Origin: Rhynochetos jubatus
Lineage: Eukaryota > Chordata > Aves > Eurypygiformes > Rhynochetidae
Assembly (NCBI GenBank): GCA_027574665.1
Contig: CM050655.1
Coordinates: 620,001-684,000 of the forward strand
DNA: 64,000 nucleotides
Direction: 5' to 3'
In this document: positions 1 through 64,000 of the stretch, one piece after another
How the letters are laid out: every line of letters begins with the position of its first letter
Numbering within the stretch: position 1 is the first letter of the stretch
Notes under the pieces: model-generated
What the model was told of the DNA's origin: nothing
The model's input: only the letters and a program-made list of their open reading frames with translations
Database searches by the model: none
Program-made: the position numbers and the translations under genes

Positions 1-12
1 GGATTGCTTGCA
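1..12. repeat. Partial unit at left window edge
   Basis: The last 12 bases of a unit, ending directly before the HindIII site at 13. The window starts inside the array, so the array continues to the left. Confidence 0.8.
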
Positions 13-484
13 AAGCTTAGAAACAAGCCTCTCCCTTTTCCTCCCAAGTGGAAAGAGCTACGAGAGAATTTCTGAGTGAAACCTTGTTTGTTTTGGCAGA
101 GCACTGCATGCCTCTTAAGACAGAGCTCTGGATCCCCGGGAAAGTCGAAATCCAGGGGGACACCTTCTCTGTGCTAGTAGACTCGGAGAGGCTCGAATGC
201 GCGGCTCGTTGAAGCGTCTGCCCGAACACGGACATCTAAAGCAGCACTGTAATGCGACCAAACAGAAAGAGTTAGGAGAGAATTTCTTGTCCCTTCCTTC
301 TGTGCCTTTGCAGAGCACTGCGTGCCAGAGCAGCCAGATCGCTGTCTTGCTTACAATCTCCAGTTCCAATAGTGCTACAGTTCCTCGGCAACAGAAAGAG
401 CTAGGAAGGAATTGCTTGCGCTGTTTTCTCTCGCTGTGCACTAGCAGTTCGTTCCCTTTTTGGCAGAACGCGGGACTGCTTGCA
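13..484. repeat. Diverged full-length unit
   Basis: A 472-bp unit carrying about 16 base changes not seen, or hardly seen, in other units, against one or two private changes in a typical unit. Examples lie in the dyad arm (46-50), near 175-176, around 297-303, at 325, 351, 379, 385, 445, 467 and 474. At least three are CpG losses (CG to TG or CA). The changes break the dyad present in nearly all other units. The CENP-B-box-like motif is intact at 134-150. High divergence is typical of units near an array edge, where homogenisation is weak, so a boundary may lie not far left of the window. Confidence 0.9.
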
Positions 485-756
485 AAGCTTAGAAACAAAC
501 CTCTCCCTTTTCCTCCAAAAGGGAAAGAGCTACGAGAGAATTTCTTAGTGAAACATTGTTTGTTTTGGCAGAGCACTGCATGCCTCTTAAGACAGAGCTC
601 TGGATCACCGGGAAAGTCTAAATCTAGAGGGACACATTGTGGTTCAAACAGACTAGGACAAAACACAAAGAGCTAGGAAGGAATTGCTTGCGCTGTTTTC
701 TCTCGCTGTGCTCTAGCAGTTCGTTCCCTTTTCGGCAGAGCGCGGGACCGCTTGCA
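485..756. repeat. Short 272-bp variant unit S1
   Basis: HindIII-to-HindIII distance is 272 bp instead of 472. Segments C and B are present; segment A and 71 bp of linker are missing. The join is visible near 633-668, where a stretch reading GGTTCAAACAGACTAGGAC replaces the usual CTCGGAGAGGCTCG linker and runs straight into the B segment. Diagnostic bases are GGATCACC at 602-609 and CTAA in place of CGAA at 618-621, so the CENP-B-box-like motif is lost. It lies beside the diverged unit at 13-484. Confidence 0.95.
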
Positions 757-772
757 AAGCTTAGAAACAAAC

Positions 773-799
773 CTCTCCCTTTTCCTCCAAAAGGGAAAG
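773..799. other. Dyad (inverted repeat), mismatched arm form
   Basis: CTCTCCCTTTT, a 5-base loop CCTCC, then AAAAGGGAAAG. Arms pair over 8 bp, one C/A mismatch, then 2 bp. It lies at unit positions 17-43 in nearly every unit and also forms a run of 17 or more pyrimidines followed by 13 purines. Units at 7837, 8781, 17277, 20581, 28605, 31909, 46541 and 60373 have CGTCC in the loop. Confidence 0.8.
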
Positions 800-856
800 A
801 GCTACGAGAGAATTTCTGAGTGAAACCTTGTTTGTTTTGGCAGAGCACTGCATGCC
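796..856. repeat. Internal segment C (61 bp)
   Basis: Begins with AAAGAGCTACGAGAGAATTT and ends in GCAGAGCACTGCATGCC. It aligns without gaps to segment A of the same unit at about 43 of 61 bases, with best matches at the two ends. The repetition shows the 472-bp unit grew from shorter related segments. The same segment starts at position 40 of every unit. Confidence 0.75.
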
Positions 857-864
857 TCTTAAGA

Positions 865-874
865 CAGAGCTCTG
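865..874. other. 10-bp palindrome CAGAGCTCTG
   Basis: A perfect 10-bp palindrome containing a SacI site, 3 bp before the CENP-B-box-like motif. It recurs at unit positions 109-118. Units with GAGCTGTGG (for example 1815, 12671, 15031, 29191, 32495, 40519, 45711, 47127 and 53263) have lost it. Confidence 0.7.
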
Positions 875-877
875 GAT

Positions 878-894
878 CCCCGGGAAAGTCGAAA
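878..894 (-). other. CENP-B-box-like 17-mer (8 of 9 core bases)
   Basis: Read on the minus strand this is TTTCGACTTTCCCGGGG. The mammalian CENP-B box core is nTTCGnnnnAnnCGGGn. TTCG and CGGG match with correct spacing; the central A is T. The motif sits at unit positions 122-138 and by reading is retained in about 126 of 133 full-type units. It is lost at 8430, 12678, 35806, 49966, 56646, 58334 and 60022 and in all five short units. A one-mismatch core is expected by chance in roughly one of ten random 472-bp sequences, so binding by CENP-B is unproven. Confidence 0.45.
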
Positions 895-1009
895 TCCAGG
901 GGGACACCTTCTCTGTCCTAACTTGCTCGGAGAGGCTCGAATGCGCGGCTCGTTGAAGCGTCTGCCCGAACACGGACATCTGAAGCATCACTGTAATGCG
1001 ACCAAACAG

Positions 1010-1070
1010 AAAGAGTTAGGAGACAATTTCTTGTCCCTTCTTGCTGCGCCTTTGCAGAGCACTGCGTGCC
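1010..1070. repeat. Internal segment A (61 bp)
   Basis: Begins AAAGAGTTAGGAGACAATTT in this copy (GAGAATTT in most) and ends GCAGAGCACTGCGTGCC. It is related to segment C (about 70 percent by eye) and, over its first 24 bases, to segment B (about 20 of 24). It starts at position 254 of each full unit. It is absent from all five 272-bp units. Confidence 0.75.
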
Positions 1071-1138
1071 AGAGCAGCCGGATGGCTGTGTTGCTTGCAA
1101 TCTCCAGTTCCAACAGTGCCACAGTTCCTCGGCAACAG

Positions 1139-1228
1139 AAAGAGCTAGGAAGGAATTGCTTGCGCTGTTTTCTCTCGCTGTGCTCTAGCAGTTCGTTCCC
1201 TTTTCGGCAGAGCACGGGACCGCTTGCA
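1139..1228. repeat. Internal segment B
   Basis: Begins AAAGAGCTAGGAAGGAATTG, exactly 129 bp after segment A and 129 bp before the next segment C (1268). Similarity to A and C is clear for the first 24 bases and reappears around CGGCAGAGC near 1206. The middle has diverged. It is retained in full and short units alike. Confidence 0.65.
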
Positions 1229-1716
1229 AAGCTTAGAAACAAACCTCTCCCTTTTCCTCCAAAAGGGAAAGAGCTACGAGAGAATTTCTTAGGGAAACCT
1301 TGTTTGTTTTGGCAGAGCACTGCATGCCTCTTAAGACAGAGCTCTGGATCCCCGGGAAAGTCGAAATCCAGGGGGACACCTTCTCTGTCCTAACTTGCTC
1401 GGAGAGGCTCGAATGCACGGCTCGTTGAAGCGTCTGCCCGAACACGGACATCTGAAGCAGCACTGTAATGCGACCAAACAGAAAGAGTTAGGAGAGAATT
1501 TCTTGTCCCTTCTTGCTGCGCCTTTGCAGAGCACTGCGTGCCAGAGCAGCCGGATCGCTGTGTTGCTTGCAATCTCCAGTTCCAACAGTGCCACAGTTCC
1601 TCGGCAACAGAAAGAGCTAGGAAGGAATTGCTTGCGCTGATTTCTCTCGCTGTGCTCTAGCAGTTCGTTCCCTTTTCGGCAGAGCGCGGGACCGCTTGCA
1701 AAGCTTAGAAACAAAC

Positions 1717-1743
1717 CTCTCCCTTTTCCTCCAAAAGGGAGAG
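1717..1743. other. Dyad, perfect 11-bp arm form
   Basis: The same element as at 773-799, but the second arm reads AAAAGGGAGAG, so the 11-bp arms are perfectly complementary around a 5-base loop. This G form goes mostly with units that also carry CCACAGGGTCACC. It could extrude as a cruciform or hairpin; that is inference. Confidence 0.8.
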
Positions 1744-2172
1744 AGCTACGAGAGAATTTCTTAGGGAAACCTTGTTTGTTTTGGCAGAGCACTGCATGCC
1801 TCTTAAGACAGAGCTGTGGATCCCCGGGAAAGTCGAAATCCACAGGGTCACCTTCTCTGTGCTAACAGGCTCGGAGAGGCTCGAAGGCGCGGCTCGTTGA
1901 AGCGTCTGCCCGAACACGGACATCTAAAGCAGCACTGTAATGCGACCAAACAGAAAGAGTTAGGAGAGAATTTCTTGTCCCTCCTTGCTGCGCCTTTGCA
2001 GAGCACTGCGTGCCAGAGCAGCCGGATCGCTGTCTTGCTTGCAATCTCCAGTTCCAACAGTGCCACAGTTCCTCGGCAACAGAAAGAGCTAGGAAGGAAT
2101 TGCTTGCGCTGATTTCTCTCGCTGTGCTCTAGCAGTTCGTTCCCTTTTCGGCAGAGCGCGGGACCGCTTGCA

Positions 2173-5004
2173 AAGCTTAGAAACAAACCTCTCCCTTTTC
2201 CTCCAAAAGGGAGAGAGCTACGAGAGAATTTCTTAGGGAAACCTTGTTTGTTTTGGCAGAGCACTGCATGCCTCTTAAGACAGAGCTCTGGATCCCCGGG
2301 AAAGTCGAAATCCACAGGGTCACCTTCTCTGTGCTAACAGGCTCGGAGAGGCTCGAAGGCGCGGCTCGTTGAAGCGTCTGCCCGAACACGGACATCTAAA
2401 GCAGCACTGTAATGCGACCAAACAGAAAGAGTTAGGAGAGAATTTCTTGTCCCTCCTTGCTGCGCCTTTGCAGAGCACTGCGTGCCAGAGCAGCCGGATC
2501 GCTGTGTTGCTTGCAATCTCCAGTTCCAACAGTGCCACAGTTCCTCGGCAACAGAAAGAGCTAGGAAGGAATTGCTTGCGCTGATTTCTCTCGCTGTGCT
2601 ACAGCAGTTCGTTCCCTTTTCGGCAGAGCGCGGGACCGCTTGCAAAGCTTAGAAACAAACCTCTCCCTTTTCCTCCAAAAGGGAGAGAGCTACGAGAGAA
2701 TTTCTTAGGGAAACCTTGTTTGTTTTGGCAGAGCACTGCATGCCTCTTAAGACAGAGCTCTGGATCCCCGGGAAAGTCGAAATCCACAGGGTCACCTTCT
2801 CTGTGCTAACCGGCTCGGAGAGGCTCGAAGGCGCGGCTCGTTGAAGCGTCTGCCCGAACACGGACATCTAAAGCAGCACTGTAATGCGACCAAACAGAAA
2901 GAGTTAGGAGAGAATTTCTTGTCCCTCCTTGCTGCGCCTTTGCAGAGCACTGCGTGCCAGAGCAGCCGGATCGCTGTCTTGCTTGCAATCTCCAGTTCCA
3001 ACAGTGCCACAGTTCCTCGGCAACAGAAAGAGCTAGGAAGGAATTGCTTGCGCTGATTTCTCTCGCTGTGCTCTAGCAGTTCGTTCCCTTTTCGGCAGAG
3101 CGCGGGACTGCTTGCAAAGCTTAGAAACAAACCTCTCCCTTTTCCTCCAAAAGGGAGAGAGCTACGAGAGAATTTCTTAGGGAAACCTTGTTTGTTTTGG
3201 CAGAGCACTGCATGCCTCTTAAGACAGAGCTCTGTATCCCCGGGAAAGTCGAAATCCAGGGGGACACCTTCTCTGTCCTAACAGGCTCGGAGAGGCTCGA
3301 ATGCATGGCTCGTTGAAGCGTCTGCCCGAACACGGACATCTGAAGCAGCACTGTAATGCGAGCAAACAGAAAGAGTTAGGAGAGAATTTCTTGTCCCTTC
3401 TTGCTGCTCCTTTGCAGAGCACTGCGTGCCAGAGCAGCCGGATCGCTGTGTCGCTTGCAATCTCCAGTTCCAACAGTGCCACAGTTCCTCGGCAACAGAA
3501 AGAGCTAGGAAGGAATTGCTTGCGCTGATTTCTCTCGCTGTGCTCTAGCAGTTCGTTCCCTTTTCGGCAGAGCGCGGGACTGCTTGCAAAGCTTAGAAAC
3601 AAACCTCTCCCTTTTCCTCCAAAAGGGAGAGAGCTACGAGAGAATTTCTTAGGGAAACCTTGTTTGTTTTGGCAGAGCACTGCATGCCTCTTAAGACAGA
3701 GCTCTGTATCCCCGGGAAAGTCGAAATCCAGGGGGACACCTTCTCTGTCCTAACAGGCTCGGAGAGGCTCGAATGCGCGGCTCTTTGAAGCGTCTGCCCG
3801 AACACGGACATCTGAAGCAGCACTGTAATGCGAGCAAACAGAAAGAGTTAGGAGAGAATTTCTTGTCCCTTCTTGCTGCGCCTTTGCAGAGCACTGCGTG
3901 CCAGAGCAGCCGGATGGCTGTGTTGCTTGCAATCTCCAGTTCCAACAGTGCCACAGTTCCTCGGCAACAGAAAGAGCTAGGAAGGAATTGCTTGCGCTGT
4001 TTTCTCTCGCTGTGCTCTAGCAGTTCGTTCCCTTTTCGGCAGAGCGCGGGACCGCTTGCAAAGCTTAGAAACAAACCTCTCCCTTTTCCTCCAAAAGGGA
4101 AAGAGCTACGAGAGAATTTCTTAGGGAAACCTTGTTTGTTTTGGCAGAGCACTGCATGCCTCTTAAGACAGAGCTCTGGATCCCCGGGAAAGTCGAAATC
4201 CAGGGGGACACCTTCTCTGTCCTAACCGGCTCGGAGAGGCTCGAATGCACGGCTCGTTGAAGCGTCTGCCCGAACACGGACATCTGAAGCAGCACTGTAA
4301 TGCGACCAAACAGAAAGAGTTAGGAGAGAATTTCTTGTCCCTTCTTGCTGCTCCTTTGCAGAGCACTGCGTGCCAGAGCAGCCGGATCGCTGTGTCGCTT
4401 GCAATCTCCAGTTCCAACAGTGCCACAGTTCCTCGGCAACAGAAAGAGCTAGGAAGGAATTGCTTGCGCTGTTTTCTCTCGCTCTGCTCTAGCAGTTCGT
4501 TCCCTTTTCGGCAGAGCGCGGGACCGCTTGCAAAGCTTAGAAACAAACCTCTCCCTTTTCCTCCAAAAGGGAAAGAGCTACGAGAGAATTTCTTAGGGAA
4601 ACCTTGTTTGTTTTGGCAGAGCACTGCATGCCTCTTAAGACAGAGCTCTGTATCCCCGGGAAAGTCGAAATCCAGAGGGACACCTTCTCTGTGCTAACAG
4701 ACTCGGAGAGGCTCGAATGCGCGGCTCGTTGAAGCGTCTGCCCGAACACGGACATCTGAAGCAGCACTGTAATGCGACCAAACAGAAAGAGTTAGGAGAG
4801 AATTTCTTGTCCCTTCTTGCTGCGCCTTTGCAGAGCACTGCGTGCCAGAGCAGCCGGATGGCTGTGTTGCTTGCAATCTCCAGTTCCAACAGTGCCACAG
4901 TTCCTCGGCAACAGAAAGAGCTAGGAAGGAATTGCTTGCGCTGTTTTCTCTCGCTGTGCTCTAGCAGTTCGTTCCCTTTTCGGCAGAGCGCGGGACCGCT
5001 TGCA
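2173..5004. repeat. Six-unit segment, copy 1 of a 7080-bp-offset duplication
   Basis: Unit types here (two CCACAGGGTCACC units, a third, then GGGGGACACC units, ending in the landmark type at 4533) largely recur 15 units further on at 9253-12084. Some middle units do not match at that offset, so the correspondence is mosaic. Unit 3117 carries the private ATGCATGG in place of ATGCGCGG or ATGCACGG. Confidence 0.65.
4533..5004. repeat. Landmark monomer type (AGAGGGACACC / AACAGACTCGG)
   Basis: A distinctive unit type with TGTATCC, CCAGAGGGACACC and GCTAACAGACTCGG. It recurs in the units starting at 11613, 19165, 24829, 27189, 30965, 38045 and 44653, giving spacings of 15, 16, 12, 5, 8, 15 and 14 units. 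AGAGGGACAC and AACAGACT are also found at the join of the short units, which suggests common descent or exchange with that type. Useful as a marker of long-range higher-order structure of roughly 6.6-7.6 kb. Confidence 0.75.
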
Positions 5005-8000
5005 AAGCTTAGAAACAAACCTCTCCCTTTTCCTCCAAAAGGGAAAGAGCTACGAGAGAATTTCTGAGTGAAACCTTGTTTGTTTTGGCAGAGCACTGCA
5101 TGCCTCTTAAGACAGAGCTCTGGATCCCCGGGAAAGTCGAAATCCAGGGGGACACCTTCTCTGTCCTAACTTGCTCGGAGAGGCTCGAATGCGCGGCTCG
5201 TTGAAGCGTCTGCCCGAACACGGACATCTGAAGCAGCACTGTAATGCGACCAAACAGAAAGAGTTAGGAGAGAATTTCTTGTCCCTTCTTGCTGCTCCTT
5301 TGCAGAGCACTGCGTGCCAGAGCAGCCGGATGGCTGTGTTGCTTGCAATCTCCAGTTCCAACAGTGCCACAGTTCCTCGGCAACAGAAAGAGCTAGGAAG
5401 GAATTGCTTGCGCTGTTTTCTCTCGCTGTGCTCTAGCAGTTCGTTCCCTTTTCGGCAGAGCGCGGGACCGCTTGCAAAGCTTAGAAACAAACCTCTCCCT
5501 TTTCCTCCAAAAGGGAAAGAGCTACGAGAGAATTTCTTAGGGAAACCTTGTTTGTTTTGGCAGAGCACTGCATGCCTCTTAAGACAGAGCTCTGGATCCC
5601 CGGGAAAGTCGAAATCCAGGGGGACACCTTCTCTGTCCTAACTTGCTCGGAGAGGCTCGAATGCACGGCTCGTTGAAGCGTCTGCCCGAACACGGACATC
5701 TGAAGCAGCACTGTAATGCGACCAAACAGAAAGAGTTAGGAGAGAATTTCTTGTCCCTTCTTGCTGCGCCTTTGCAGAGCACTGCGTGCCAGAGCAGCCG
5801 GATCGCTGTGTTGCTTGCAATCTCCAGTTCCAACAGTGCCACAGTTCCTCGGCAACAGAAAGAGCTAGGAAGGAATTGCTTGCGCTGTTTTCTCTCGCTG
5901 TGCTCTAGCAGTTCGTTCCCTTTTCGGCAGAGCGCGGGACCGCTTGCAAAGCTTAGAAACAAACCTCTCCCTTTTCCTCCAAAAGGGAAAGAGCTACGAG
6001 AGAATTTCTGAGTGAAACCTTGTTTGTTTTGGCAGAGCACTGCATGCCTCTTAAGACAGAGCTCTGGATCCCCGGGAAAGTCGAAATCCAGGGGGACACC
6101 TTCTCTGTCCTAACTTGCTCGGAGAGGCTCGAATGCGCGGCTCGTTGAAGCGTCTGCCCGAACACGGACATCTGAAGCATCACTGTAATGCGAGCAAACA
6201 GAAAGAGTTAGGAGAGAATTTCTTGTCCCTTCTTGCTGCGCCTTTGCAGAGCACTGCGTGCCAGAGCAGCCGGATGGCTGTGTTGCTTGCAATCTCCAGT
6301 TCCAACAGTGCCACAGTTCCTCGGCAACAGAAAGAGCTAGGAAGGAATTGCTTGCGCTGTTTTCTCTCGCTGTGCTCTAGCAGTTCGTTCCCTTTTCGGC
6401 AGAGCGCGGGACCGCTTGCAAAGCTTAGAAACAAACCTCTCCCTTTTCCTCCAAAAGGGAAAGAGCTACGAGAGAATTTCTGAGTGAAACCTTGTTTGTT
6501 TTGGCAGAGCACTGCATGCCTCTTAAGACAGAGCTCTGGATCCCCGGGAAAGTCGAAATCCAGGGGGACACCTTCTCTGTCCTAACTTGCTCGGAGAGGC
6601 TCGAATGCACGGCTCGTTGAAGCGTCTGCCCGAACACGGACATCTGAAGCAGCACTGTAATGCGACCAAACAGAAAGAGTTAGGAGAGAATTTCTTGTCC
6701 CTTCTTGCTGCGCCTTTGCAGAGCACTGCGTGCCAGAGCAGCCGGATCGCTGTGTTGCTTGCAATCTCCAGTTCCAACAGTGCCACAGTTCCTCGGCAAC
6801 AGAAAGAGCTAGGAAGGAATTGCTTGCGCTGTTTTCTCTCGCTGTGCTCTAGCAGTTCGTTCCCTTTTCGGCAGAGCGCGGGACCGCTTGCAAAGCTTAG
6901 AAACAAACCTCTCCCTTTTCCTCCAAAAGGGAAAGAGCTACGAGAGAATTTCTTAGGGAAACCTTGTTTGTTTTGGCAGAGCACTGCATGCCTCTTAAGA
7001 CAGAGCTCTGGATCCCCGGGAAAGTCGAAATCCAGGGGGACACCTTCTCTGTCCTAACTTGCTCGGAGAGGCTCGAATGCACGGCTCGTTGAAGCGTCTG
7101 CCCGAACACGGACATCTGAAGCAGCACTGTAATGCGACCAAACAGAAAGAGTTAGGAGAGAATTTCTTGTCCCTTCTTGCTGCGCCTTTGCAGAGCACTG
7201 CGTGCCAGAGCAGCCGGATCGCTGTGTTGCTTGCAATCTCCAGTTCCAACAGTGCCACAGTTCCTCGGCAACAGAAAGAGCTAGGAAGGAATTGCTTGCG
7301 CTGTTTTCTCTCGCTGTGCTCTAGCAGTTCGTTCCCTTTTCGGCAGAGCGCGGGACCGCTTGCAAAGCTTAGAAACAAACCTCTCCCTTTTCCTCCAAAA
7401 GGGAAAGAGCTACGAGAGAATTTCTGAGTGAAACCTTGTTTGTTTTGGCAGAGCACTGCATGCCTCTTAAGACAGAGCTCTGGATCCCCGGGAAAGTCGA
7501 AATCCAGGGGGACACCTTCTCTGTCCTAACTTGCTCGGAGAGGCTCGAATGCGCGGCTCGTTGAAGCGTCTGCCCGAACACGGACATCTGAAGCATCACT
7601 GTAATGCGACCAAACAGAAAGAGTTAGGAGACAATTTCTTGTCCCTTCTTGCTGCGCCTTTGCAGAGCACTGCGTGCCAGAGCAGCCGGATGGCTGTGTT
7701 GCTTGCAATCTCCAGTTCCAACAGTGCCACAGTTCCTCGGCAACAGAAAGAGCTAGGAAGGAATTGCTTGCGCTGTTTTCTCTCGCTGTGCTCTAGCAGT
7801 TCGTTCCCTTTTCGGCAGAGCGCGGGACCGCTTGCAAAGCTTAGAAACAAACCTCTCCCTTTTCGTCCAAAAGGGAAAGAGCTACGAGAGAATTTCTTAG
7901 GGAAACCTTGTTTGTTTTGGCAGAGCACTGCATGCCTCTTAAGACAGAGCTCTGGATCCCCGGGAAAGTCGAAATCCAGGGGGACACCTTCTCTGTCCTA

Positions 8001-9252
8001 ACTTGCTCGGAGAGGCTCGAATGCACGGCTCGTTGAAGCGTCTGCCCGAACACGGACATCTGAAGCAGCACTGTAATGCGACCAAACAGAAAGAGTTAGG
8101 AGAGAATTTCTTGTCCCTTCTTGCTGCGCCTTTGCAGAGCACTGCGTGCCAGAGCAGCCGGATCGCTGTGTTGCTTGCAATCTCCAGTTCCAACAGTGCC
8201 ACAGTTCCTCGGCAACAGAAAGAGCTAGGAAGGAATTGCTTGCGCTGTTTTCTCTCGCTGTGCTCTAGCAGTTCGTTCCCTTTTCGGCAGAGCGCGGGAC
8301 CGCTTGCAAAGCTTAGAAACAAACCTCTCCCTTTTCCTCCAAAAGGGAAAGAGCTACGAGAGAATTTCTTAGGGAAACCTTGTTTGTTTTGGCAGAGCAC
8401 TGCATGCCTCTTAAGACAGAGCTCTGGATCCCCGGGAAAGTTGAAATCCAGGGGGACACCTTCTCTGTCCTAACTTGCTCGGAGAGGCTCGAAGGCGCGG
8501 CTCGTTGAAGCGTCTGCCCGAACACGGACATCTGAAGCAGCACTGTAATGCGACCAAACAGAAAGAGTTAGGAGACAATTTCTTGTCCCTTCTTGCTGCT
8601 CCTTTGCAGAGCACTGCGTGCCAGAGCAGCCGGATCGCTGTGTTGCTTGCAATCTCCAGTTCCAACAGTGCCACAGTTCCTCGGCAACAGAAAGAGCTAG
8701 GAAGGAATTGCTTGCGCTGTTTTCTCTCGCTGTGCTCTAGCAGTTCGTTCCCTTTTCGGCAGAGCGCGGGACCGCTTGCAAAGCTTAGAAACAAACCTCT
8801 CCCTTTTCGTCCAAAAGGGAAAGAGCTACGAGAGAATTTCTTAGGGAAACCTTGTTTGTTTTGGCAGAGCACTGCATGCCTCTTAAGACAGAGCTCTGGA
8901 TCCCCGGGAAAGTCGAAATCCAGGGGGACACCTTCTCTGTGCTAACCGGCTCGGAGAGGCTCGAAGGCGCGGCTCGTTGAAGCGTCTGCCCGAACACGGA
9001 CATCTGAAGCAGCACTGTAATGCGACCAAACAGAAAGAGTTAGGAGACAATTTCTTGTCCCTTCTTGCTGCTCCTTTGCAGAGCACTGCGTGCCAGAGCA
9101 GCCGGATCGCTGTGTCGCTTGCAATCTCCAGTTCCAACAGTGCCACAGTTCCTCGGCAACAGAAAGAGCTAGGAAGGAATTGCTTGCGCTGATTTCTCTC
9201 GCTGTGCTCTAGCAGTTCGTTCCCTTTTCGGCAGAGCGCGGGACCGCTTGCA

Positions 9253-12084: not shown

Positions 12085-12556
12085 AAGCTTAGAAACAAAC
12101 CTCTCCCTTTTCCTCCAAAAGGGAAAGAGCTACGAGAGAATTTCTGAGTGAAACCTTGTTTGTTTTGGCAGAGCACTGCATGCCTCTTAAGACAGAGCTC
12201 TGGATCCCCGGGAAAGTCGAAATCCAGGGGGACACCTTCTCTGTCCTAACTTGCTCGGAGAGGCTCGAATGCACGGCTCGTTGAAGCGTCTGCCCGAACA
12301 CGGACATCTGAAGCAGCACTGTAATGCGACCAAACAGAAAGAGTTAGGAGAGAATTTCTTGTCCCTTCTTGCTGCGCCTTTGCAGAGCACTGCGTGCCAG
12401 AGCAGCCGGATCGCTGTGTTGCTTGCAATCTCCAGTTCCAACAGTGCCACAGTTCCTCGGCAACAGAAAGAGCTAGGAAGGAATTGCTTGCGCTGTTTTC
12501 TCTCGCTGTGCTCTAGCAGTTCGTTCCCTTTTCGGCAGAGCGCGGGACCGCTTGCA

Positions 12557-19164: not shown

Positions 19165-20108
19165 AAGCTTAGAAACAAACCTCTCCCTTTTCCTCCAAAA
19201 GGGAAAGAGCTACGAGAGAATTTCTTAGGGAAACCTTGTTTGTTTTGGCAGAGCACTGCATGCCTCTTAAGACAGAGCTCTGTATCCCCGGGAAAGTCGA
19301 AATCCAGAGGGACACCTTCTCTGTGCTAACAGACTCGGAGAGGCTCGAATGCGCGGCTCGTTGAAGCGTCTGCCCGAACACGGACATCTGAAGCAGCACT
19401 GTAATGCGACCAAACAGAAAGAGTTAGGAGAGAATTTCTTGTCCCTTCTTGCTGCGCCTTTGCAGAGCACTGCGTGCCAGAGCAGCCGGATCGCTGTGTT
19501 GCTTGCAATCTCCAGTTCCAACAGTGCCACAGTTCCTCGGCAACAGAAAGAGCTAGGAAGGAATTGCTTGCGCTGTTTTCTCTCGCTGTGCTACAGCAGT
19601 TCGTTCCCTTTTCGGCAGAGCGCGGGACCGCTTGCAAAGCTTAGAAACAAACCTCTCCCTTTTCCTCCAAAAGGGAAAGAGCTACGAGAGAATTTCTGAG
19701 TGAAACCTTGTTTGTTTTGGCAGAGCACTGCATGCCTCTTAAGACAGAGCTCTGGATCCCCGGGAAAGTCGAAATCCAGGGGGACACCTTCTCTGTCCTA
19801 ACTTGCTCGGAGAGGCTCGAATGCACGGCTCGTTGAAGCGTCTGCCCGAACACGGACATCTGAAGCAGCACTGTAATGCGACCAAACAGAAAGAGTTAGG
19901 AGAGAATTTCTTGTCCCTTCTTGCTGCGCCTTTGCAGAGCACTGCGTGCCAGAGCAGCCGGATCGCTGTGTTGCTTGCAATCTCCAGTTCCAACAGTGCC
20001 ACAGTTCCTCGGCAACAGAAAGAGCTAGGAAGGAATTGCTTGCGCTGTTTTCTCTCGCTGTGCTCTAGCAGTTCGTTCCCTTTTCGGCAGAGCGCGGGAC
20101 CGCTTGCA

Positions 20109-53620: not shown

Positions 53621-53892
53621 AAGCTTAGAAACAAACCTCTCCCTTTTCCTCCAAAAGGGAGAGAGCTACGAGAGAATTTCTTAGGGAAACCTTGTTTGTT
53701 TTGGCAGAGCACTGCATGCCTGTTAAGACAGAGCTCTGGATCACCGGGAAAGTCTAAATCTAGAGGGACACATTGTGGTTCAAACAGACTAGGACAAAAC
53801 ACAAAGAGCTAGGAAGGAATTGCTTGCACTGTTTTCTCTCGCTGTGCTCTAGCAGTTCGTTCCCTTTTCGGCAGAGCGCGGGACCACTTGCA
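53621..53892. repeat. Short 272-bp variant unit S2
   Basis: Same 200-bp absence as S1, with the join at about 53770-53805. Private changes are CTGTTAAGAC near 53720, TTGCACTG near 53825 and GGACCACTTG near 53883. The CENP-B-box-like motif is lost at both ends of the core (from 53742). Confidence 0.95.
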
Positions 53893-55308
53893 AAGCTTAG
53901 AAACAAACCTCTCCCTTTTCCTCCAAAAGGGAAAGAGCTACGAGAGAATTTCTGAGTGAAACCTTGTTTGTTTTGGCAGAGCACTGCATGCCTCTTAAGA
54001 CAGAGCTCTGGATCCCCGGGAAGGTCGAAATCCAGGGGGACACCTTCTCTGTCCTAACCGGCTCGGAGAGGCTCGAAGGCGCGGCTCGTTGAAGCGTCTG
54101 CCCGAAGACGGACATCTAAAGCAGCACTGTAATGCGAGCAAACAGAAAGAGTTAGGAGAGAATTTCTTGTCCCTTCTTGCTGCGCCTTTGCAGAGCACTG
54201 CGTGCCAGAGCAGCCGGATCGCTGTGTTGCTTGCAATCTCCAGTTCCAACAGTGCCACAGTTCCTCGGCAACAGAAAGAGCTAGGAAGGAATTGCTTGCG
54301 CTGATTTCTCTCGCTGTGCTCTAGCAGTTCGTTCCCTTTTCGGCAGAGCGCGGGACCGCTTGCAAAGCTTAGAAACAAACCTCTCCCTTTTCCTCCAAAA
54401 GGGAGAGAGCTACGAGAGAATTTCTTAGGGAAACCTTGTTTGTTTTGGCAGAGCACTGCATGCCTCTTAAGACAGAGCTCTGGATCCCCGGGAAAGTCGA
54501 AATCCACAGGGTCACCTTCTCTGTGCTAACCGGCTCGGAGAGGCTCGAAGGCGCGGCTCGTTGAAGCGTCTGCCCGAACACGGACATCTAAAGCAGCACT
54601 GTAATGCGAGCAAACAGAAAGAGTTAGGAGAGAATTTCTTGTCCCTCCTTGCTGCGCCTTTGCAGAGCACTGCGTGCCAGAGCAGCCGGATCGCTGTGTT
54701 GCTTGCAATCTCCAGTTCCAACAGTGCCACAGTTCCTCGGCAACAGAAAGAGCTAGGAAGGAATTGCTTGCGCTGATTTCTCTCGCTGTGCTCTAGCAGT
54801 TCGTTCCCTTTTCGGCAGAGCGCGGGACCGCTTGCAAAGCTTAGAAACAAACCTCTCCCTTTTCCTCCAAAAGGGAGAGAGCTACGAGAGAATTTCTTAG
54901 GGAAACCTTGTTTGTTTTGGCAGAGCACTGCATGCCTCTTAAGACAGAGCTCTGGATCCCCGGGAAAGTCGAAATCCACAGGGTCACCTTCTCTGTGCTA
55001 ACCGGCTCGGAGAGGCTCGAAGGCGCGGCTCGTTGAAGCGTCTGCCCGAACATGGACATCTAAAGCAGCACTGTAATGCGACCAAACAGAAAGAGTTAGG
55101 AGAGAATTTCTTGTCCCTTCTTGCTGCGCCTTTGCAGAGCACTGCGTGCCAGAGCAGCCGGATCGCTGTGTCGCTTGCAATCTCCAGTTCCAACAGTGCC
55201 ACAGTTCCTCGGCAACAGAAAGAGCTAGGAAGGAATTGCTTGCGCTGATTTCTCTCGCTGTGCTCTAGCAGTTCGTTCCCTTTTCGGCAGAGCGCGGGAC
55301 CGCTTGCA
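53893..55308. repeat. Three full units between S2 and S3
   Basis: Three 472-bp units. Private changes include GGGAAGGTCG near 54022, CGAAGACGG near 54105 and AACATGGACATC near 55050. Confidence 0.9.
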
Positions 55309-55580
55309 AAGCTTAGAAACAAACCTCTCCCTTTTCCTCCAAAAGGGAAAGAGCTACGAGAGAATTTCTTAGTGAAACCTTGTTTGTTTTGGCAGAGCAC
55401 TGCATGCCTCTTAAGACAGAGCTCTGGATCACCGGGAAAGTCTAAATCTAGAGGGACACATTGTGGTTCAAACAGACTAGGACAAAACACAAAGAGCTAG
55501 GAAGGAATTGCTTGCGCTGATTTCTCTCGCTGTGCTCTAGCAGTTCGTTCCCTTTTCGGCAGAGCGCGGGACCGCTTGCA
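55309..55580. repeat. Short 272-bp variant unit S3
   Basis: Join at about 55457-55492 with the same sequence as S1 and S2 (GACACATTGTGG). It begins a 1688-bp period with S4 and S5. Confidence 0.95.
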
Positions 55581-56996
55581 AAGCTTAGAAACAAACCTCT
55601 CCCTTTTCCTCCAAAAGGGAGAGAGCTACGAGAGAATTTCTTAGGGAAACCTTGTTTGTTTTGGCAGAGCACTGCATGCCTCTTAAGACAGAGCTCTGGA
55701 TCCCCGGGAAAGTCGAAATCCACAGGGTCACCTTCTCTGTGCTAACCGGCTCGGAGAGGCTCGAAGGCGCGGCTCGTTGAAGCGTCTGCCCGAACACGGA
55801 CATCTGAAGCAGCACTGTAATGCGAGCAAACAGAAAGAGTTAGGAGAGAATTTCTTGTCCCTCCTTGCTGCGCCTTTGCAGAGCACTGCGTGCCAGAGCA
55901 GCCGGATCGCTGTGTGGCTTGCAATCTCCAGTTCCAACAGTGCCACATTTCCTCGGCAACAGAAAGAGCTAGGAAGGAATTGCTTGCGCTGTTTTCTCTC
56001 GCTGTGCTCTAGCAGTTCGTTCCCTTTTCGGCAGAGCGCGGGACCGCTTGCAAAGCTTAGAAACAAACCTCTCCCTTTTCCTCCAAAAGGGAAAGAGCTA
56101 CGAGAGAATTTCTGAGTGAAACCTTGTTTGTTTTGGCAGAGCACTGCATGCCTCTTAAGACAGAGCTCTGGATCCCCGGGAAAGTCGAAATCCACAGGGT
56201 CACCTTCTCTGTGCTAACCGGCTCGGAGAGGCTCGAAGGCGCGGCTCGTTGAAGCGTCTGCCCGAACACGGACATCTGAAGCAGCACTGTAATGCGACCA
56301 AACAGAAAGAGTTAGGAGAGAATTTCTTGTCCCTCCTTGCTGCGCCTTTGCAGAGCACTGCGTGCCAGAGCAGCCGGATCGCTGTGTTGCTTGCAATCTC
56401 CAGTTCCAACAGTGCCACAGTTCCTCGGCAACAGAAAGAGCTAGGAAGGAATTGCTTGCGCTGTTTTCTCTCGCTGTGCTCTAGCAGTTCGTTCCCTTTT
56501 CGGCAGAGCGCGGGACCGCTTGCAAAGCTTAGAAACAAACCTCTCCCTTTTCCTCCAAAAGGGAAAGAGCTACGAGAGAATTTCTGAGTGAAACCTTGTT
56601 TGTTTTGGCAGAGCACTGCATGCCTCTTAAGACAGAGCTCTGGATCACCGGGAAAGTCGAAATCCAGGGGGACACCTTCTCTGTCCTAACTTGCTCGGAG
56701 AGGCTCGAATGCACGGCTCGTTGAAGCGTCTGCCCGAACACGGACATCTGAAGCAGCACTGTAATGCGAGCAAACAGAAAGAGTTAGGAGAGAATTTCTT
56801 GTCCCTTCTTGCTGCTCCTTTGCAGAGCACTGCGTGCCAGAGCAGCCGGATCGCTGTGTTGCTTGCAATCTCCAGTTCCAACAGTGCCACAGTTCCTCGG
56901 CAACAGAAAGAGCTAGGAAGGAATTGCTTGCGCTGTTTTCTCTCGCTCTGCTCTAGCAGTTCGTTCCCTTTTCGGCAGAGCGCGGGACCGCTTGCA
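55309..56996. repeat. 1688-bp compound repeat, copy 1 (short unit + three full units)
   Basis: One 272-bp unit plus three 472-bp units. The rare GTGTGGCTT near 55913 is repeated exactly 1688 bp downstream and seen nowhere else. The third full unit has GGATCACC at 56642. S2 to S3 is also 1688 bp, but the full units between them are of other types. Confidence 0.85.
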
Positions 56997-57268
56997 AAGC
57001 TTAGAAACAAACCTCTCCCTTTTCCTCCAAAAGGGAAAGAGCTACGAGAGAATTTCTTAGTGAAACCTTGTTTGTTTTGGCAGAGCACTGCATGCCTCTT
57101 AAGACAGAGCTCTGGATCACCGGGAAAGTCTAAATCTAGAGGGACACCTTGTGGTTCAAACAGACTAGGACAAAACACAAAGAGCTAGGAAGGAATTGCT
57201 TGCGCTGATTTCTCTCGCTGTGCTCTAGCAGTTCGTTCCCTTTTCGGCAGAGCGCGGGACCGCTTGCA
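56997..57268. repeat. Short 272-bp variant unit S4
   Basis: Join at about 57145-57180. Reads GACACCTTGTGG where S1-S3 have GACACATTGTGG. Confidence 0.95.
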
Positions 57269-58684
57269 AAGCTTAGAAACAAACCTCTCCCTTTTCCTCC
57301 AAAAGGGAGAGAGCTACGAGAGAATTTCTTAGGGAAACCTTGTTTGTTTTGGCAGAGCACTGCATGCCTCTTAAGACAGAGCTCTGGATCCCCGGGAAAG
57401 TCGAAATCCACAGGGTCACCTTCTCTGTGCTAACCGGCTCGGAGAGGCTCGAAGGCCCGGCTCGTTGAAGCGTCTGCCCGAACACGGACATCTGAAGCAG
57501 CACTGTAATGCGAGCAAACAAAAAGAGTTAGGAGAGAATTTCTTGTCCCTCCTTGCTGCGCCTTTGCAGAGCACTGCGTGCCAGAGCAGCCGGATCGCTG
57601 TGTGGCTTGCAATCTCCAGTTCCAACAGTGCCACAGTTCCTCGGCAACAGAAAGAGCTAGGAAGGAATTGCTTGCGCTGTTTTCTCTCGCTGTGCTCTAG
57701 CAGTTCGTTCCCTTTTCGGCAGAGCGCGGGACCGCTTGCAAAGCTTAGAAACAAACCTCTCCCTTTTCCTCCAAAAGGGAAAGAGCTACGAGAGAATTTC
57801 TGAGTGAAACCTTGTTTGTTTTGGCAGAGCACTGCATGCCTCTTAAGACAGAGCTCTGGATCCCCGGGAAAGTCGAAATCCACAGGGTCACCTTCTCTGT
57901 GCTAACCGGCTCGGAGAGGCTCGAAGGCGCGGCTCGTTGAAGCGTCTGCCCGAACACGGACATCTGAAGCAGCACTGTAATGCGACCAAACAGAAAGAGT
58001 TAGGAGAGAATTTCTTGTCCCTCCTTGCTGCGCCTTTGCAGAGCACTGCGTGCCAGAGCAGCCGGATCGCTGTGTTGCTTGCAATCTCCAGTTCCAACAG
58101 TGCCACAGTTCCTCGGCAACAGAAAGAGCTAGGAAGGAATTGCTTGCGCTGTTTTCTCTCGCTCTGCTCTAGCAGTTCGTTCCCTTTTCGGCAGAGCGCG
58201 GGACCGCTTGCAAAGCTTAGAAACAAACCTCTCCCTTTTCCTCCAAAAGGGAAAGAGCTACGAGAGAATTTCTGAGTGAAACCTTGTTTGTTTTGGCAGA
58301 GCACTGCATGCCTCTTAAGACAGAGCTCTGGATCACCGGGAAAGTCGAAATCCAGGGGGACACCTTCTCTGTCCTAACTTGCTCGGAGAGGCTCGAATGC
58401 ACGGCTCGTTGAAGCGTCTGCCCGAACACGGACATCTGAAGCAGCACTGTAATGCGAGCAAACAGAAAGAGTTAGGAGAGAATTTCTTGTCCCTTCTTGC
58501 TGCTCCTTTGCAGAGCACTGCGTGCCAGAGCAGCCGGATCGCTGTGTTGCTTGCAATCTCCAGTTCCAACAGTGCCACAGTTCCTCGGCAACAGAAAGAG
58601 CTAGGAAGGAATTGCTTGCGCTGTTTTCTCTCGCTCTGCTCTAGCAGTTCGTTCCCTTTTCGGCAGAGCGCGGGACCGCTTGCA
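56997..58684. repeat. 1688-bp compound repeat, copy 2
   Basis: Same composition and order as 55309-56996, including GTGTGGCTT near 57601 and GGATCACC at 58330. Private changes are GAAGGCCCGG near 57453 and AACAAAAAGAG near 57518. Confidence 0.85.
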
Positions 58685-58956
58685 AAGCTTAGAAACAAAC
58701 CTCTCCCTTTTCCTCCAAAAGGGAAAGAGCTACGAGAGAATTTCTTAGTGAAACCTTGTTTGTTTTGGCAGAGCACTGCATGCCTCTTAAGACAGAGCTC
58801 TGGATCACCGGGAAAGTCTAAATCTAGAGGGACACCTTGTGGTTCAAACAGACTAGGACAAAACAGAAAGAGCTAGGAAGGAATTGCTTGCGCTGATTTC
58901 TCTCGCTGTGCTCTAGCAGTTCGTTCCCTTTTCGGCAGAGCGCGGGACCGCTTGCA
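58685..58956. repeat. Short 272-bp variant unit S5
   Basis: Join at about 58833-58868. Like S4 it has GACACCTTGTGG; it differs from all others with ACAGAAAGAG in place of ACACAAAGAG. It starts a third, less faithful 1688-bp copy (58685-60372) whose third full unit again has GGATCACC at 60018. Confidence 0.95.
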
Positions 58957-61900
58957 AAGCTTAGAAACAAACCTCTCCCTTTTCCTCCAAAAGGGAGAGA
59001 GCTACGAGAGAATTTCTTAGGGAAACCTTGTTTGTTTTGGCAGAGCACTGCATGCCTCTTAAGACAGAGCTCTGGATCCCCGGGAAAGTCGAAATCCACA
59101 GGGTCACCTTCTCTGTGCTAACCGGCTCGGAGAGGCTCGAAGGCGCGGCTCGTTGAAGCGTCTGCCCGAACACGGACATCTGAAGCAGCACTGTAATGCG
59201 ACCAAACAGAAAGAGTTAGGAGAGAATTTCTTATCCCTCCTTGCTGCGCCTTTGCAGAGCACTGCGTGCCAGAGCAGCCGGATCGCTGTGTTGCTTGCAA
59301 TCTCCAGTTCCAACAGTGCCACAGTTCCTCGGCAACAGAAAGAGCTAGGAAGGAATTGCTTGCGCTGATTTCTCTCGCTGTGCTACAGCAGTTCGTTCCC
59401 TTTTCGGCAGAGCGCCGGACCGCTTGCAAAGCTTAGAAACAAACCTCTCCCTTTTCCTCCAAAAGGGAGAGAGCTACGAGAGAATTTCTTAGGGAAACCT
59501 TGTTTGTTTTGGCAGAGCACTGCATGCCTCTTAAGACAGAGCTCTGGATCCCCGGGAAAGTCGAAATCCAGGGGGACACCTTCTCTGTCCTAACTTGCTC
59601 GGAGAGGCTCGAATGCACGGCTCTTTGAAGCGTCTGCCCGAACACGGACATCTGAAGCAGCACTGTAATGCGACCAAACAGAAAGAGTTAGGAGAGAATT
59701 TCTTGTCCCTTCTTGCTGCGCCTTTGCAGAGCACTGCGTGCCAGAGCAGCCGGATCGCTGTCTTGCTTGCAATCTCCAGTTCCAACAGTGCCACAGTTCC
59801 TCGGCAACAGAAAGAGCTAGGAAGGAATTGCTTGCGCTGTTTTCTCTCGCTCTGCTCTAGCAGTTCGTTCCCTTTTCGGCAGAGCGCGGGACCGCTTGCA
59901 AAGCTTAGAAACAAACCTCTCCCTTTTCCTCCAAAAGGGAAAGAGCTACGAGAGAATTTCTTAGTGAAACCTTGTTTGTTTTGGCAGAGCACTGCATGCC
60001 TCTTAAGACAGAGCTCTGGATCACCGGGAAAGTCGAAATCCAGGGGGACACCTTCTCTGTCCTAACTTGCTCGGAGAGGCTCGAATGCGCGGCTCGTTGA
60101 AGCGTCTGCCCGAACACGGACATCTGAAGCAGCACTGTAATGCGACCAAACAGAAAGAGTTAGGAGACAATTTCTTGTCCCTTCTTGCTGCGCCTTTGCA
60201 GAGCACTGCGTGCCAGAGCAGCCGGATGGCTGTGTTGCTTGCAATCTCCAGTTCCAACAGTGCCACAGTTCCTCGGCAACAGAAAGAGCTAGGAAGGAAT
60301 TGCTTGCGCTGTTTTCTCTCGCTGTGCTCTAGCAGTTCGTTCCCTTTTCGGCAGAGCGCGGGACCGCTTGCAAAGCTTAGAAACAAACCTCTCCCTTTTC
60401 GTCCAAAAGGGAAAGAGCTACGAGAGAATTTCTTAGGGAAACCTTGTTTGTTTTGGCAGAGCACTGCATGCCTCTTAAGACAGAGCTCTGGATCCCCGGG
60501 AAAGTCGAAATCCAGGGGGACACCTTCTCTGTCCTAACTTGCTCGGAGAGGCTCGAATGCACGGCTCGTTGAAGCGTCTGCCCGAACACGGACATCTGAA
60601 GCAGCACTGTAATGCGACCAAACAGAAAGAGTTAGGAGAGAATTTCTTGTCCCTTCTTGCTGCGCCTTTGCAGAGCACTGCGTGCCAGAGCAGCCGGATC
60701 GCTGTGTTGCTTGCAATCTCCAGTTCCAACAGTGCCACAGTTCCTCGGCAACAGAAAGAGCTAGGAAGGAATTGCTTACGCTGTTTTCTCTCGCTGTGCT
60801 CTAGCAGTTCGTTCCCTTTTCGGCAGAGCGCGGGACCGCTTGCAAAGCTTAGAAACAAACCTCTCCCTTTTCCTCCAAAAGGGAAAGAGCTACGAGAGAA
60901 TTTCTTAGGGAAACCTTGTTTGTTTTGGCAGAGCACTGCATGCCTCTTAAGACAGAGCTCTGGATCCCCGGGAAAGTCGAAATCGAGGGGGACACCTTCT
61001 CTGTGCTAACCGGCTCGGAGAGGCTCGAAGGCGCGGCTCGTTGAAGCGTCTGCCCGAACACGGACATCTGAAGCAGCACTGTAATGCGACCAAACAGAAA
61101 GAGTTAGGAGAGAATTTCTTGTCCCTTCTTGCTGCTCCTTTGCAGAGCACTGCGTGCCAGAGCAGCCGGATCGCTGTGTCGCTTGCAATCTCCAGTTCCA
61201 ACAGTGCCACAGTTCCTCGGCAACAGAAAGAGCTAGGAAGGAATTGCTTGCGCTGTTTTCTCTCGCTGTGCTCTAGCAGTTCGTTCCCTTTTCGGCAGAG
61301 CGCGGGACCGCTTGCAAAGCTTAGAAACAAACCTCTCCCTTTTCCTCCAAAAGGGAGAGAGCTACGAGAGAATTTCTTAGGGAAACCTTGTTTGTTTTGG
61401 CAGAGCACTGCATGCCTCTTAAGACAGAGCTCTGGATCCCCGGGAAAGTCGAAATCCACAGGGTCACCTTCTCTGTGCTAACCGGCTCGGAGAGGCTCGA
61501 AGGCGCGGCTCGTTGAAGCGTCTGCCCGAACACGGACATCTGAAGCAGCACTGTAATGCGACCAAACAGAAAGAGTTAGGAGAGAATTTCTTGTCCCTTC
61601 TTGCTGCGCCTTTGCAGAGCACTGCGTGCCAGAGCAGCCGGATCGCTGTGTTGCTTGCAATCTCCAGTTCCAACAGTGCCACAGTTCCTCGGCAACAGAA
61701 AGAGCTAGGAAGGAATTGCTTGCGCTGATTTCTCTCGCTGTGCTACAGCAGTTCGTTCCCTTTTCGGCAGAGCGCGGGACCGCTTGCAAAGCTTAGAAAT
61801 AAACCTCTCCCTTTTCCTCCAAAAGGGAGAGAGCTACGAGAGAATTTCTTAGGGAAACCTTGTTTGTTTTGGCAGAGCACTGCATGCCTCTTAAGACAGA

Positions 61901-63676
61901 GCTCTGGATCCCCGGGAAAGTCGAAATCCACAGGGTCACCTTCTCTGTGCTAACCGGCTCGGAGAGGCTCGAAGGCGCGGCTCGTTGAAGCGTCTGCCCG
62001 AACACGGACATCTGAAGCAGCACTGTAATGCGACCAAAGAGAAAGAGTTAGGAGAGAATTTCTTGTCCCTTCTTGCTGCGCCTTTGCAGAGCACTGCGTG
62101 CCAGAGCAGCCGGATCGCTGTGTCGCTTGCAATCTCCAGTTCCAACAGTGCCACAGTTCCTCGGCAACAGAAAGAGCTAGGAAGGAATTGCTTGCGCTGA
62201 TTTCTCTCGCTGTGCTCTAGCAGTTCGTTCCCTTTTCGGCAGAGCGCGGGACCGCTTGCAAAGCTTAGAAACAAACCTCTCCCTTTTCCTCCAAAAGGGA
62301 AAGAGCTACGAGAGAATTTCTGAGTGAAACCTTGTTTGTTTTGGCAGAGCACTGCATGCCTCTTAAGACAGAGCTCTGGATCCCCGGGAAAGTCGAAATC
62401 CAGGGGGACACCTTCTCTGTCCTAACTTGCTCGGAGAGGCTCGAATGCACGGCTCGTTGAAGCGTCTGCCCGAACACGGACATCTGAAGCAGCACTGTAA
62501 TGCGACCAAACAGAAAGAGTTAGGAGAGAATTTCTTGTCCCTTCTTGCTGCTCCTTTGCAGAGCACTGCGTGCCAGAGCAGCCGGATCGCTGTGTCGCTT
62601 GCAATCTCCAGTTCCAACAGTGCCACAGTTCCTCGGCAACAGAAAGAGCTAGGAAGGAATTGCTTGCGCTGTTTTCTCTCGCTGTGCTCTAGCAGTTCGT
62701 TCCCTTTTCGGCAGAGCGCGGGACCGCTTGCAAAGCTTAGAAACAAACCTCTCCCTTTTCCTCCAAAAGGGAAAGAGCTACGAGAGAATTTCTGAGTGAA
62801 ACCTTGTTTGTTTTGGCAGAGCACTGCATGCCTCTTAAGACAGAGCTCTGTATCCCCGGGAAAGTCGAAATCCACAGGGTCACCTTCTCTGTGCTAACCG
62901 GCTCGGAGAGGCTCGAATGCGCGGCTCGTTGAAGCGTCTGCCCGAACACGGACATCTGAAGCAGCACTGTAATGCGACCAAACAGAAAGAGTTAGGAGAG
63001 AATTTCTTGTCCCTTCTTGCTGCGCCTTTGCAGAGCACTGCGTGCCAGAGCAGCCGGATCGCTCTGTTGCTTGCAATCGCCACTTCCAACAGTGCCACAG
63101 TTCCTCGGCAACAGAAAGAGCTAGGAAGGAATTGCTTGCGCTGTTTTCTCTCGCTGTGCTCTAGCAGTTCGTTCCCTTTTCGGCAGAGCGCGGGACCGCT
63201 TGCAAAGCTTAGAAACAAACCTCTCCCTTTTCCTCCAAAAGGGAAAGAGCTACGAGAGAATTTCTGAGTGAAACCTTGTTTGTTTTGGCAGAGCACTGCA
63301 TGCCTCTTAAGACAGAGCTCTGGATCCCCGGGAAAGTCGAAATCCACAGGGTCACCTTCTCTGTGCTAACAGGCTCGGAGAGGCTCGAATGCACGGCTCG
63401 TTGAAGCGTCTGCCCGAACACGGACATCTAAAGCAGCACTGTAATGCGACCAAACAGAAAGAGTTAGGAGAGAATTTCTTGTCCCTCCTTGCTGCGCCTT
63501 TGCAGAGCACTGCGTGCCAGAGCAGCCGGATCGCTGTGTTGCTTGCAATCTCCAGTTCCAACAGTGCCACAGTTCCTCGGCAACAGAAAGAGCTAGGAAG
63601 GAATTGCTTGCGCTGATTTCTCTCGCTGTGCTACAGCAGTTCGTTCCCTTTTCGGCAGAGCGCGGGACCGCTTGCA
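58957..63676. repeat. Ten full 472-bp units right of the short-unit zone
   Basis: Ordinary units with no length change. Private changes include TTCTTATCCC near 59230, GCTTACGCTG near 60777 and AAATCGAGGG near 60983. The segment 61789-63676 repeats 51261-53148. Confidence 0.95.
61789..63676. repeat. Four units repeated across the short-unit zone, copy 2
   Basis: Counterpart of 51261-53148, with AGAAATAAACC near 61797 and TGTATCC with CCACAGGGTCACC near 62850-62880. A private GCTCTGTTGC lies near 63062. Confidence 0.75.
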
Positions 63677-64000
63677 AAGCTTAGAAACAAACCTCTCCCT
63701 TTTCCTCCAAAAGGGAGAGAGCTACGAGAGAATTTCTTAGGGAAACCTTGTTTGTTTTGGCAGAGCACTGCATGCCTCTTAAGACAGAGCTCTGGATCCC
63801 CGGGAAAGTCGAAATCCACAGGGTCACCTTCTCTGTGCTAACCGGCTCGGAGAGGCTCGAAGGCGCGGCTCGTTGAAGCGTCTGCCCGAACACGGACATC
63901 TAAAGCAGCACTGTAATGCGAGCAAACAGAAAGAGTTAGGAGAGAATTTCTTGTCCCTTCTTGCTGCGCCTTTGCAGAGCACTGCGTGCCAGAGCAGCCG
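63677..64000. repeat. Partial unit at right window edge (324 bp)
   Basis: A normal unit cut by the window end, with CCACAGGGTCACC, GAAGGCGCGG and CGAGCAAAC. The array continues to the right; no boundary is seen here. Confidence 0.9.

Follow-up and report, generated by a model that had tools for sequence, protein, structure and literature searches.

The 472-bp array and its unit

The window, that is the whole stretch of 64,000 bp analysed here, corresponds to C8:620001-684000 in a genome of 1,331,379,947 bases and 148 contigs. It is occupied from position 1 to 64000, on the plus strand, by a head-to-tail array of a 472-bp satellite that runs without interruption and comprises 132 full units and five units of 272 bp. 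A scan of the window with a 29-bp anchor located 138 sites across 99-63763, with no copy on the minus strand. The 137 spacings between these sites are exactly 472 bp in 132 instances and exactly 272 bp in the other five, and together with the 98 bp before the first site and the 238 bp at the right-hand end they sum to 64000. Tandem Repeats Finder gives a period of 472 bp with 133.9 copies and 94% matches over 662-64000, plus a 272-bp row at 390-907. Self-identity of the window is 0.948 at lag 472 compared to 0.424 at the best lag within 20-471. The window is certainly satellite DNA, a long head-to-tail array of a homogenised unit. The first-pass annotation had proposed the 472-bp period, which is borne out by Tandem Repeats Finder and the 132 exact spacings. 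Its count of 132 full units, five 272-bp units and two partial ends is exact, with anchor spacings that sum to 64000, and its single uninterrupted array is confirmed by anchors on one strand which, with spacings and ends, account for every base pair. That description was right as to satellite, period and counts; it overlooked the composite unit, a 1688-bp repeat, the likely age of the 272-bp units and the genome context.

The absence of a true boundary, also claimed earlier, is correct within the window, but the first 650 bp or so (1-650, plus strand) represent the inner rim of a diverged array edge of mixed 272- and 472-bp units, which starts 8.9 kb left of the window, at C8:611,143. The rim is placed by steps in identity to the consensus. 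Between C8:611,143 and 620.1 kb those 472-bp steps that align over nearly their full length are 93-96% identical to the consensus, from C8 621.1 kb onward the values are 97.5-98.5%, and the homogeneous core (about 98%) starts near window position 650.

The unit itself is composite, with internal repetition visible at lag 129. In an example unit at 1137-1608 on the plus strand (consensus position 1 is 1137) we distinguish subunit B (1137-1265, 129 bp), subunit D (1266-1394, 129 bp), segment E (1395-1478, 84 bp) and subunit A (1479-1608, 130 bp). Local alignment scores are 54 for A with B, 56 for A with D and 46 for B with D, against approximately 17 ± 3 for shuffles, and the three pairings share 72, 74 and 68 identical positions of 129 aligned columns (53-57%). 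The subunit tails show no significant relationship. Segment E, placed between the second and third subunits and the most variable part of the unit (pi 0.0375), fits none of the three in local alignment. With three related stretches of about 129 bp and an unrelated 84 bp, the unit is best described as an amplified trimer with one additional segment. The consensus has a GC content of 53.0%.

A 43-bp run at consensus 165-207 is invariant in all 132 full units, the 95% limit being 41 bp if the 73 variable sites are placed randomly. Constraint on bases common to the three subunits was considered and rejected, since 19 of 150 such positions are variable compared with 41 of 238 others (p = 0.25). The best CENP-B-box-like site in the unit, at consensus 214-230 on the minus strand, carries 8 of 9 core bases, and its exact 17-mer is retained in 124 of the 132 full units. 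This is a chance-level match, equalled by 43 of 500 dinucleotide shuffles, and the unit holds no intact 17-bp CENP-B box.

Other readings of the array were also discarded. It is not coding: a period of 472 bp does not divide by 3, 26 of 500 dinucleotide shuffles contain an open frame as long as its longest one (176 codons), and the four frames scanned of the 157 of at least 120 aa in the window have no Pfam family at E<=0.1. An RNA-gene origin is rejected because Rfam and ARAGORN gave no matches; with Rfam there were none at E<=1 in 1-10000 and none at gathering thresholds in the whole window, and ARAGORN found nothing in the window. Bacterial, viral and plasmid relatives are rejected likewise, two exact 22-mers of the satellite being absent from the bacterial and viral contig collections searched and one 472-bp unit having no blastn match in plasmids and phages.

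Short units, higher-order repeats and variation

The five 272-bp units, measured anchor to anchor on the plus strand, lie at 571-842, 53707-53978, 55395-55666, 57083-57354 and 58771-59042. The first consists of subunit B and a divergent D, termed D', and lacks A and most of E. That these units match the consensus except for about 200 absent bp would suit an origin as recent deletions inside 472-bp units, which we nonetheless consider very improbable: one junction is common to all five, the D' substitutions at positions 227 and 233 occur in every one of them and in none of the 132 full units, and 272-bp spacings are abundant in the diverged outer edges of the arrays on C8 (7 of 18) and C7 (5 of 11). 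Their frequency in those edges suggests that the 272-bp units are long-established variants and not fresh deletions.

Four of the five are spaced exactly 1688 bp apart and define a local higher-order repeat (272 + 3 x 472 bp) of four blocks at 53707-60458 on the plus strand, consecutive blocks being 97.5, 99.7 and 98.0% identical. Two further local repetitions, also on the plus strand, involve full units: a three-unit (1416-bp) pattern at 19883-24691, where 3393 bp compared at lag 1416 differ at 5 positions, and a five-unit (2360-bp) pattern at 11949-19228, where 4920 bp compared at lag 2360 differ at 27. Series also recur in the window when units three, five, seven and thirteen apart are compared. 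Higher-order repeat organisation is thus present locally; no single array-wide higher-order unit was seen in the window at lags 1-14.

The 132 full units include 93 distinct sequences, with a mean pairwise identity of 97.5% and 73 variable columns, 33 of which vary at 5% or more. Similarity between units at distances of two, five and thirteen exceeds that in every one of 500 permutations, and the values for unit lags 1, 2, 3, 5, 11 and 13 (of 1-14) lie below at least 98% of 500 permutations. Of the 528 pairs formed by common variable sites, 342 show all four gametes. Linkage extends past the borders of units and declines with distance: r2 is 0.116 at 0-100 bp, 0.03 at 300-500 bp and 0.012 at 800 bp. 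Recombination among the units of the array has therefore been extensive. The likeness of spaced units, the four gametes, and this decay of linkage over a few hundred bp irrespective of unit borders fit unequal exchange combined with short conversion tracts.

Singleton variants comprise 22 transitions and 11 transversions and are enriched at CpG (11 of 33, CpG positions being 50 of 472). Common variants are rich in transversions (10 transitions to 24 transversions, with 12 of 34 being C/G). The contrast has p = 0.003, a value inflated by clustered, linked changes among the common variants. The transversion excess might reflect GC-biased conversion that spares C/G changes, or clustered mutations.

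Satellite blocks across the genome

An invariant 33-mer of the satellite has 57,950 copies genome-wide (36,556 forward and 21,394 reverse), its reversed control none. At one 33-mer per 472 bp the satellite totals about 27 Mb or some 2% of the genome. It was found at ten places checked among the 148 contigs, nine of the contigs sampled having at least one block at a plausible centromere position. Contig C8 starts with a vertebrate-type telomere repeat, (CCCTAA)n, and its array begins 0.61 Mb in. By sampling, this array covers about 440 kb, starting on the left at 611,143 with an old edge of mixed 272- and 472-bp units and stopping somewhere in the interval 1.05-1.06 Mb. Sampling also placed blocks on C7 (0.563 to 1.2-1.4 Mb), C4 (approximately 0.49 to 0.60-0.65 Mb), C5 (approximately 76.76-77.21 Mb, minus strand) and, internally, C1 (approximately 104.18 to 104.5-105 Mb of a 148.6 Mb contig). 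Blocks on C6, C17, C25 and C71 adjoin copies of the C8 array flank, and C9 (0.32 Mb) has satellite at both sampled ends. Block extents, as sampled, range from about 0.1 to more than 0.6 Mb. On eight contigs the outer block edge lies 0.24-0.61 Mb from a contig end, in one common orientation relative to that end. The array flanks also contain apparently CR1-like sequence; together with the C8 telomere repeat and the size of the genome this points to a probable bird. A search of the genome for COX1 gave no match.

Between contigs, core units resemble each other nearly as closely as units inside one array do. Mean unit identity is 97.6% within C8, 97.3% between C8 and C5, 96.8% between C8 and C7 and 96.9% between C8 and C1. 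This comparison concerns units of exactly 472 bp (158 from C8, 36 from C4, 32 from C5, 14 from C9, 12 from C7, three from C1, two each from C6 and C71, one each from C17 and C25) and leaves out spacings of 471, 468, 466, 462, 274 and 272 bp; units on other contigs are also 471 bp long, and a few measure 462-468 bp (468, 466, 462). Core samples are mostly at 96-98% and edge samples are diverged (C1 86.6%, C5 88.8%, C8 left edge 93.8%). Samples from C17, C25 and C71, taken near edges, are 92-96% identical to the others in rows of one or two units. A C1-specific subfamily, suggested by two 401-bp samples at 93-94%, was rejected when a 1.9-kb core sample gave 97.0%. Next to the flank, C8 and C7 have colinear satellite that is 99.1% identical over its first 2426 bp. 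No identical unit common to two contigs occurs in the samples compared, and thus recent transfer from array to array is not seen directly.

What does this satellite do? Blocks near one end of eight contigs in a single relative orientation, together with an internal block on C1, make a centromeric satellite the best reading, and the family is likely centromeric. The blocks would then mark candidate centromeres, eight of them on presumptive acrocentric chromosomes. An alternative is that the satellite belongs to subtelomeric or pericentromeric heterochromatin with no kinetochore role, the centromeres being elsewhere and subtelomeric exchange explaining the sharing of sequence described below. 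Eight of the nine blocks placed on contigs have their outer edge in the terminal 0.24-0.61 Mb, shared DNA comes within 41-109 kb of several contig ends, and there are similarities close to the ends themselves (C8:931-3000 is 96% identical to C1:1-2043, and C8:1987-3000 is 92% identical to C4:1-1025). A large block deep inside C1 is, however, unexpected for a subtelomeric repeat, and an abundance of about 2% of the genome and the layering of core and edge match centromeric arrays; we judge this alternative improbable.

The reading that we hold with considerable confidence is that of the main (peri)centromeric satellite of this genome, with arrays homogenised by unequal crossover and conversion and with short arms and satellite variants spread by ectopic exchange. 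Unequal crossover and conversion would homogenise each array, whilst ectopic exchange between the short arms of non-homologous chromosomes would spread both variants and whole short arms, a process that the common orientation of the blocks would permit.

Shared short-arm DNA and known systems

Directly outside the C8 array lie 1041 bp of non-satellite DNA that recur at 99-100% identity on C6, C4, C5, C7, C25, C17 and C71, so that at least eight contigs including C8 carry them. The search gave 40 matches from the best 40 of 294 candidates, and the other 32 of these are 96-97% identical and lie on C148, C66, C49, C130, C3, C35, C32 and C12. Copies of the flank segment at 96-97% are mostly inside a tandem macrosatellite of approximately 4.1-4.3 kb (C3:111-133 kb, C12:31.11-31.15 Mb, C49:491-534 kb and C148:502-508 kb). 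Next to the satellite edge, the shared flank contains a 196-aa open frame (L016:1649-2239, on C7) that has no Pfam family at E<=1.

The likeness continues outward. A marker 15 kb beyond the flank was found at 99-100% on the same eight contigs, where its distance to the flank is 15.07-15.15 kb; with all 10 candidates scored, C22 alone has another full-length copy, at 94%. About 84 kb out, C5 does not differ from C8 or from C4 at any of 1501 bp, and identity between C8 and C4 is 99.3% over 3318 bp; about 184 kb out, C5 and C8 are 99.5% identical over 1508 bp. Direct comparison shows C8 identical to C7 over 1001 bp. A 1001-bp marker at about 210 kb, for which all 14 candidates were scored, is present on 12 contigs including C8 at 100% (rounded), six of them including C8 with the full self score, and its only other full-length copies (94-95%) are on C2 and C6. 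A marker at about 460 kb occupies, among the best 40 of 1530 candidates, at least 21 places on at least 20 contigs including C8 at 99-100% and a further place, at 96%, on C2; the remaining 18 matches are partial, at 80-86%. On C4, C6, C7, C8, C17, C25, C49 and C71, eight contigs of known length, this marker lies 41-150 kb from a contig end; it is in forward orientation where that end is the start of the contig and in reverse where it is the far end. Contig C32 has two copies, neither near its start. Single copies of short-arm markers at 94-96% (C2:5.55-5.65 Mb, C22:14.99 Mb and C6:44.25 Mb) are possible source loci of the shared arm.

In this assembly, then, near-identical non-satellite DNA is present between array and contig end on many contigs, the near-identity of sequence that characterises pseudo-homologous acrocentric short arms. 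The copies are not uniform. Contig C4 has the markers at 0, 15, 84 and 460 kb and no match to that at 210 kb, whilst C146, C49, C130, C148 and C15 have the 210-kb marker without the 15-kb one. The distance from the 210-kb marker to the array flank varies from 207.8 to 239.5 kb across seven contigs. The 460-kb marker is absent from the stretches at the positions predicted for C4 and C6, its copies sitting about 9 kb and 23 kb beyond them. Given that the contigs differ in which markers they carry and in how far apart these lie, non-homologous short arms have probably exchanged DNA recently, and we infer that short-arm recombination may be ongoing.

Controls from the other side of the arrays are of limited weight. 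A 401-bp long-arm-side marker (C8:1,060,000, less than 10 kb from the array) had no other copy above 94% among the best 40 of 1959 candidates; it is an interspersed repeat and so a weak control. Thirty of its 39 other copies are on C46 among the matches listed, and this repeat-dense contig could be a W chromosome. The 22 long-arm-side samples showed no mutual matches, a weak control also as their positions were not matched, and 20 short-arm-side samples gave the expected mutual matches plus one partial match of 62 bp.

Could the sharing be an artefact of assembly, with one arm assembled once and joined to many chromosomes? The satellite would be real in either case. The six full self scores at 210 kb and the identity of C5 with C8 and C4 at 84 kb are what such joining might produce, and near-identity could come in part from an assembler reusing graph nodes. 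One reused node would give equal copies, and these are unequal: the 460-kb marker scores from 1752 to 1806 bits among its at least 21 places, C8 and C4 differ over the 3318 bp compared, and both the marker content of C4 and the marker-to-flank distances vary. The mosaic of markers favours repeated exchange and disfavours plain copying by the assembler. Moreover, an assembler could reuse nodes only if the arms were nearly identical, so that near-identity of the arms would hold even so. We regard the artefact as unlikely.

On balance we lean, by a modest degree, to a broader proposal: that at least 20 non-homologous chromosomes carry one freely exchanged short arm, about 0.5 Mb of almost allelic DNA in a fixed orientation, on at least eight of them joined to the 472-bp candidate centromeric satellite, with adjacency to the satellite established on those eight contigs and the figure of 20 concerning the distal marker. 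The arms would amount to a pseudo-autosomal region spread over many chromosomes, with ectopic recombination, either through the satellite or through the arm itself, keeping the copies alike. The satellite by itself is one more family of the centromere type and it is the surroundings that make it useful. Near-identical short arms beside arrays of low chromosome specificity would allow a test of whole-arm exchange outside primates, and the same setting would allow tests of what keeps centromeric satellites alike throughout a karyotype and of whether short-arm sharing leads to Robertsonian fusions.

The first-pass annotation did not recognise the family, and no 472-bp satellite of matching sequence was found in the CC-licensed PMC literature searched by length or sequence words, the scope within which that claim stands. 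Several matches to the number 472 were accidental: in Tanacetum a 472-bp 5S probe, in Hirsutella and CHM13 numbers that end in 472, and in Adalia two PubMed ids. A Leptidea paper contained no relevant 472-bp satellite. Primate alpha satellite offers a general parallel, with diverged subunits in a homogenised larger unit and with older, diverged edges around a younger core. The 472-bp satellite shares these features and departs from alpha satellite in that an unrelated segment accompanies its subunits of about 129 bp, that it has no CENP-B box beyond chance expectation and that it shows little chromosome specificity in the samples.

The Penaeus monodon repeat FAM121, described as '472 bp-repeat x2.3' with a 1.368-kb consensus (PMC3124438), has the same period. 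Its GC content over that consensus is 56.07%, compared with 53.0% here, and we see no grounds for linking the two. Chicken centromeres, as reported by Huang et al. 2023 (PMC9974502), include 41-bp CNM higher-order repeats on acrocentric chromosomes. In both cases a tandem satellite organised in higher-order repeats lies close to the end of chromosomes that are acrocentric, or here inferred to be so, but our unit is 472 bp with subunits of about 129 bp rather than 41 bp, and the window has no (TTAGGG)n tract. Titles and abstracts from a narrow search of CC-licensed literature gave no report of shared short arms in birds. The closest precedent is provided by the pseudo-homologous regions of human acrocentric chromosomes, near-identical short-arm segments on non-homologous chromosomes that Guarracino et al. 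2023 (PMC10172130) read as heterologous recombination. The two systems are alike in near-identical short-arm DNA across non-homologous chromosomes; the human case involves five chromosomes, whereas in the one genome assembly from which the present case is known at least 20 contigs are concerned.
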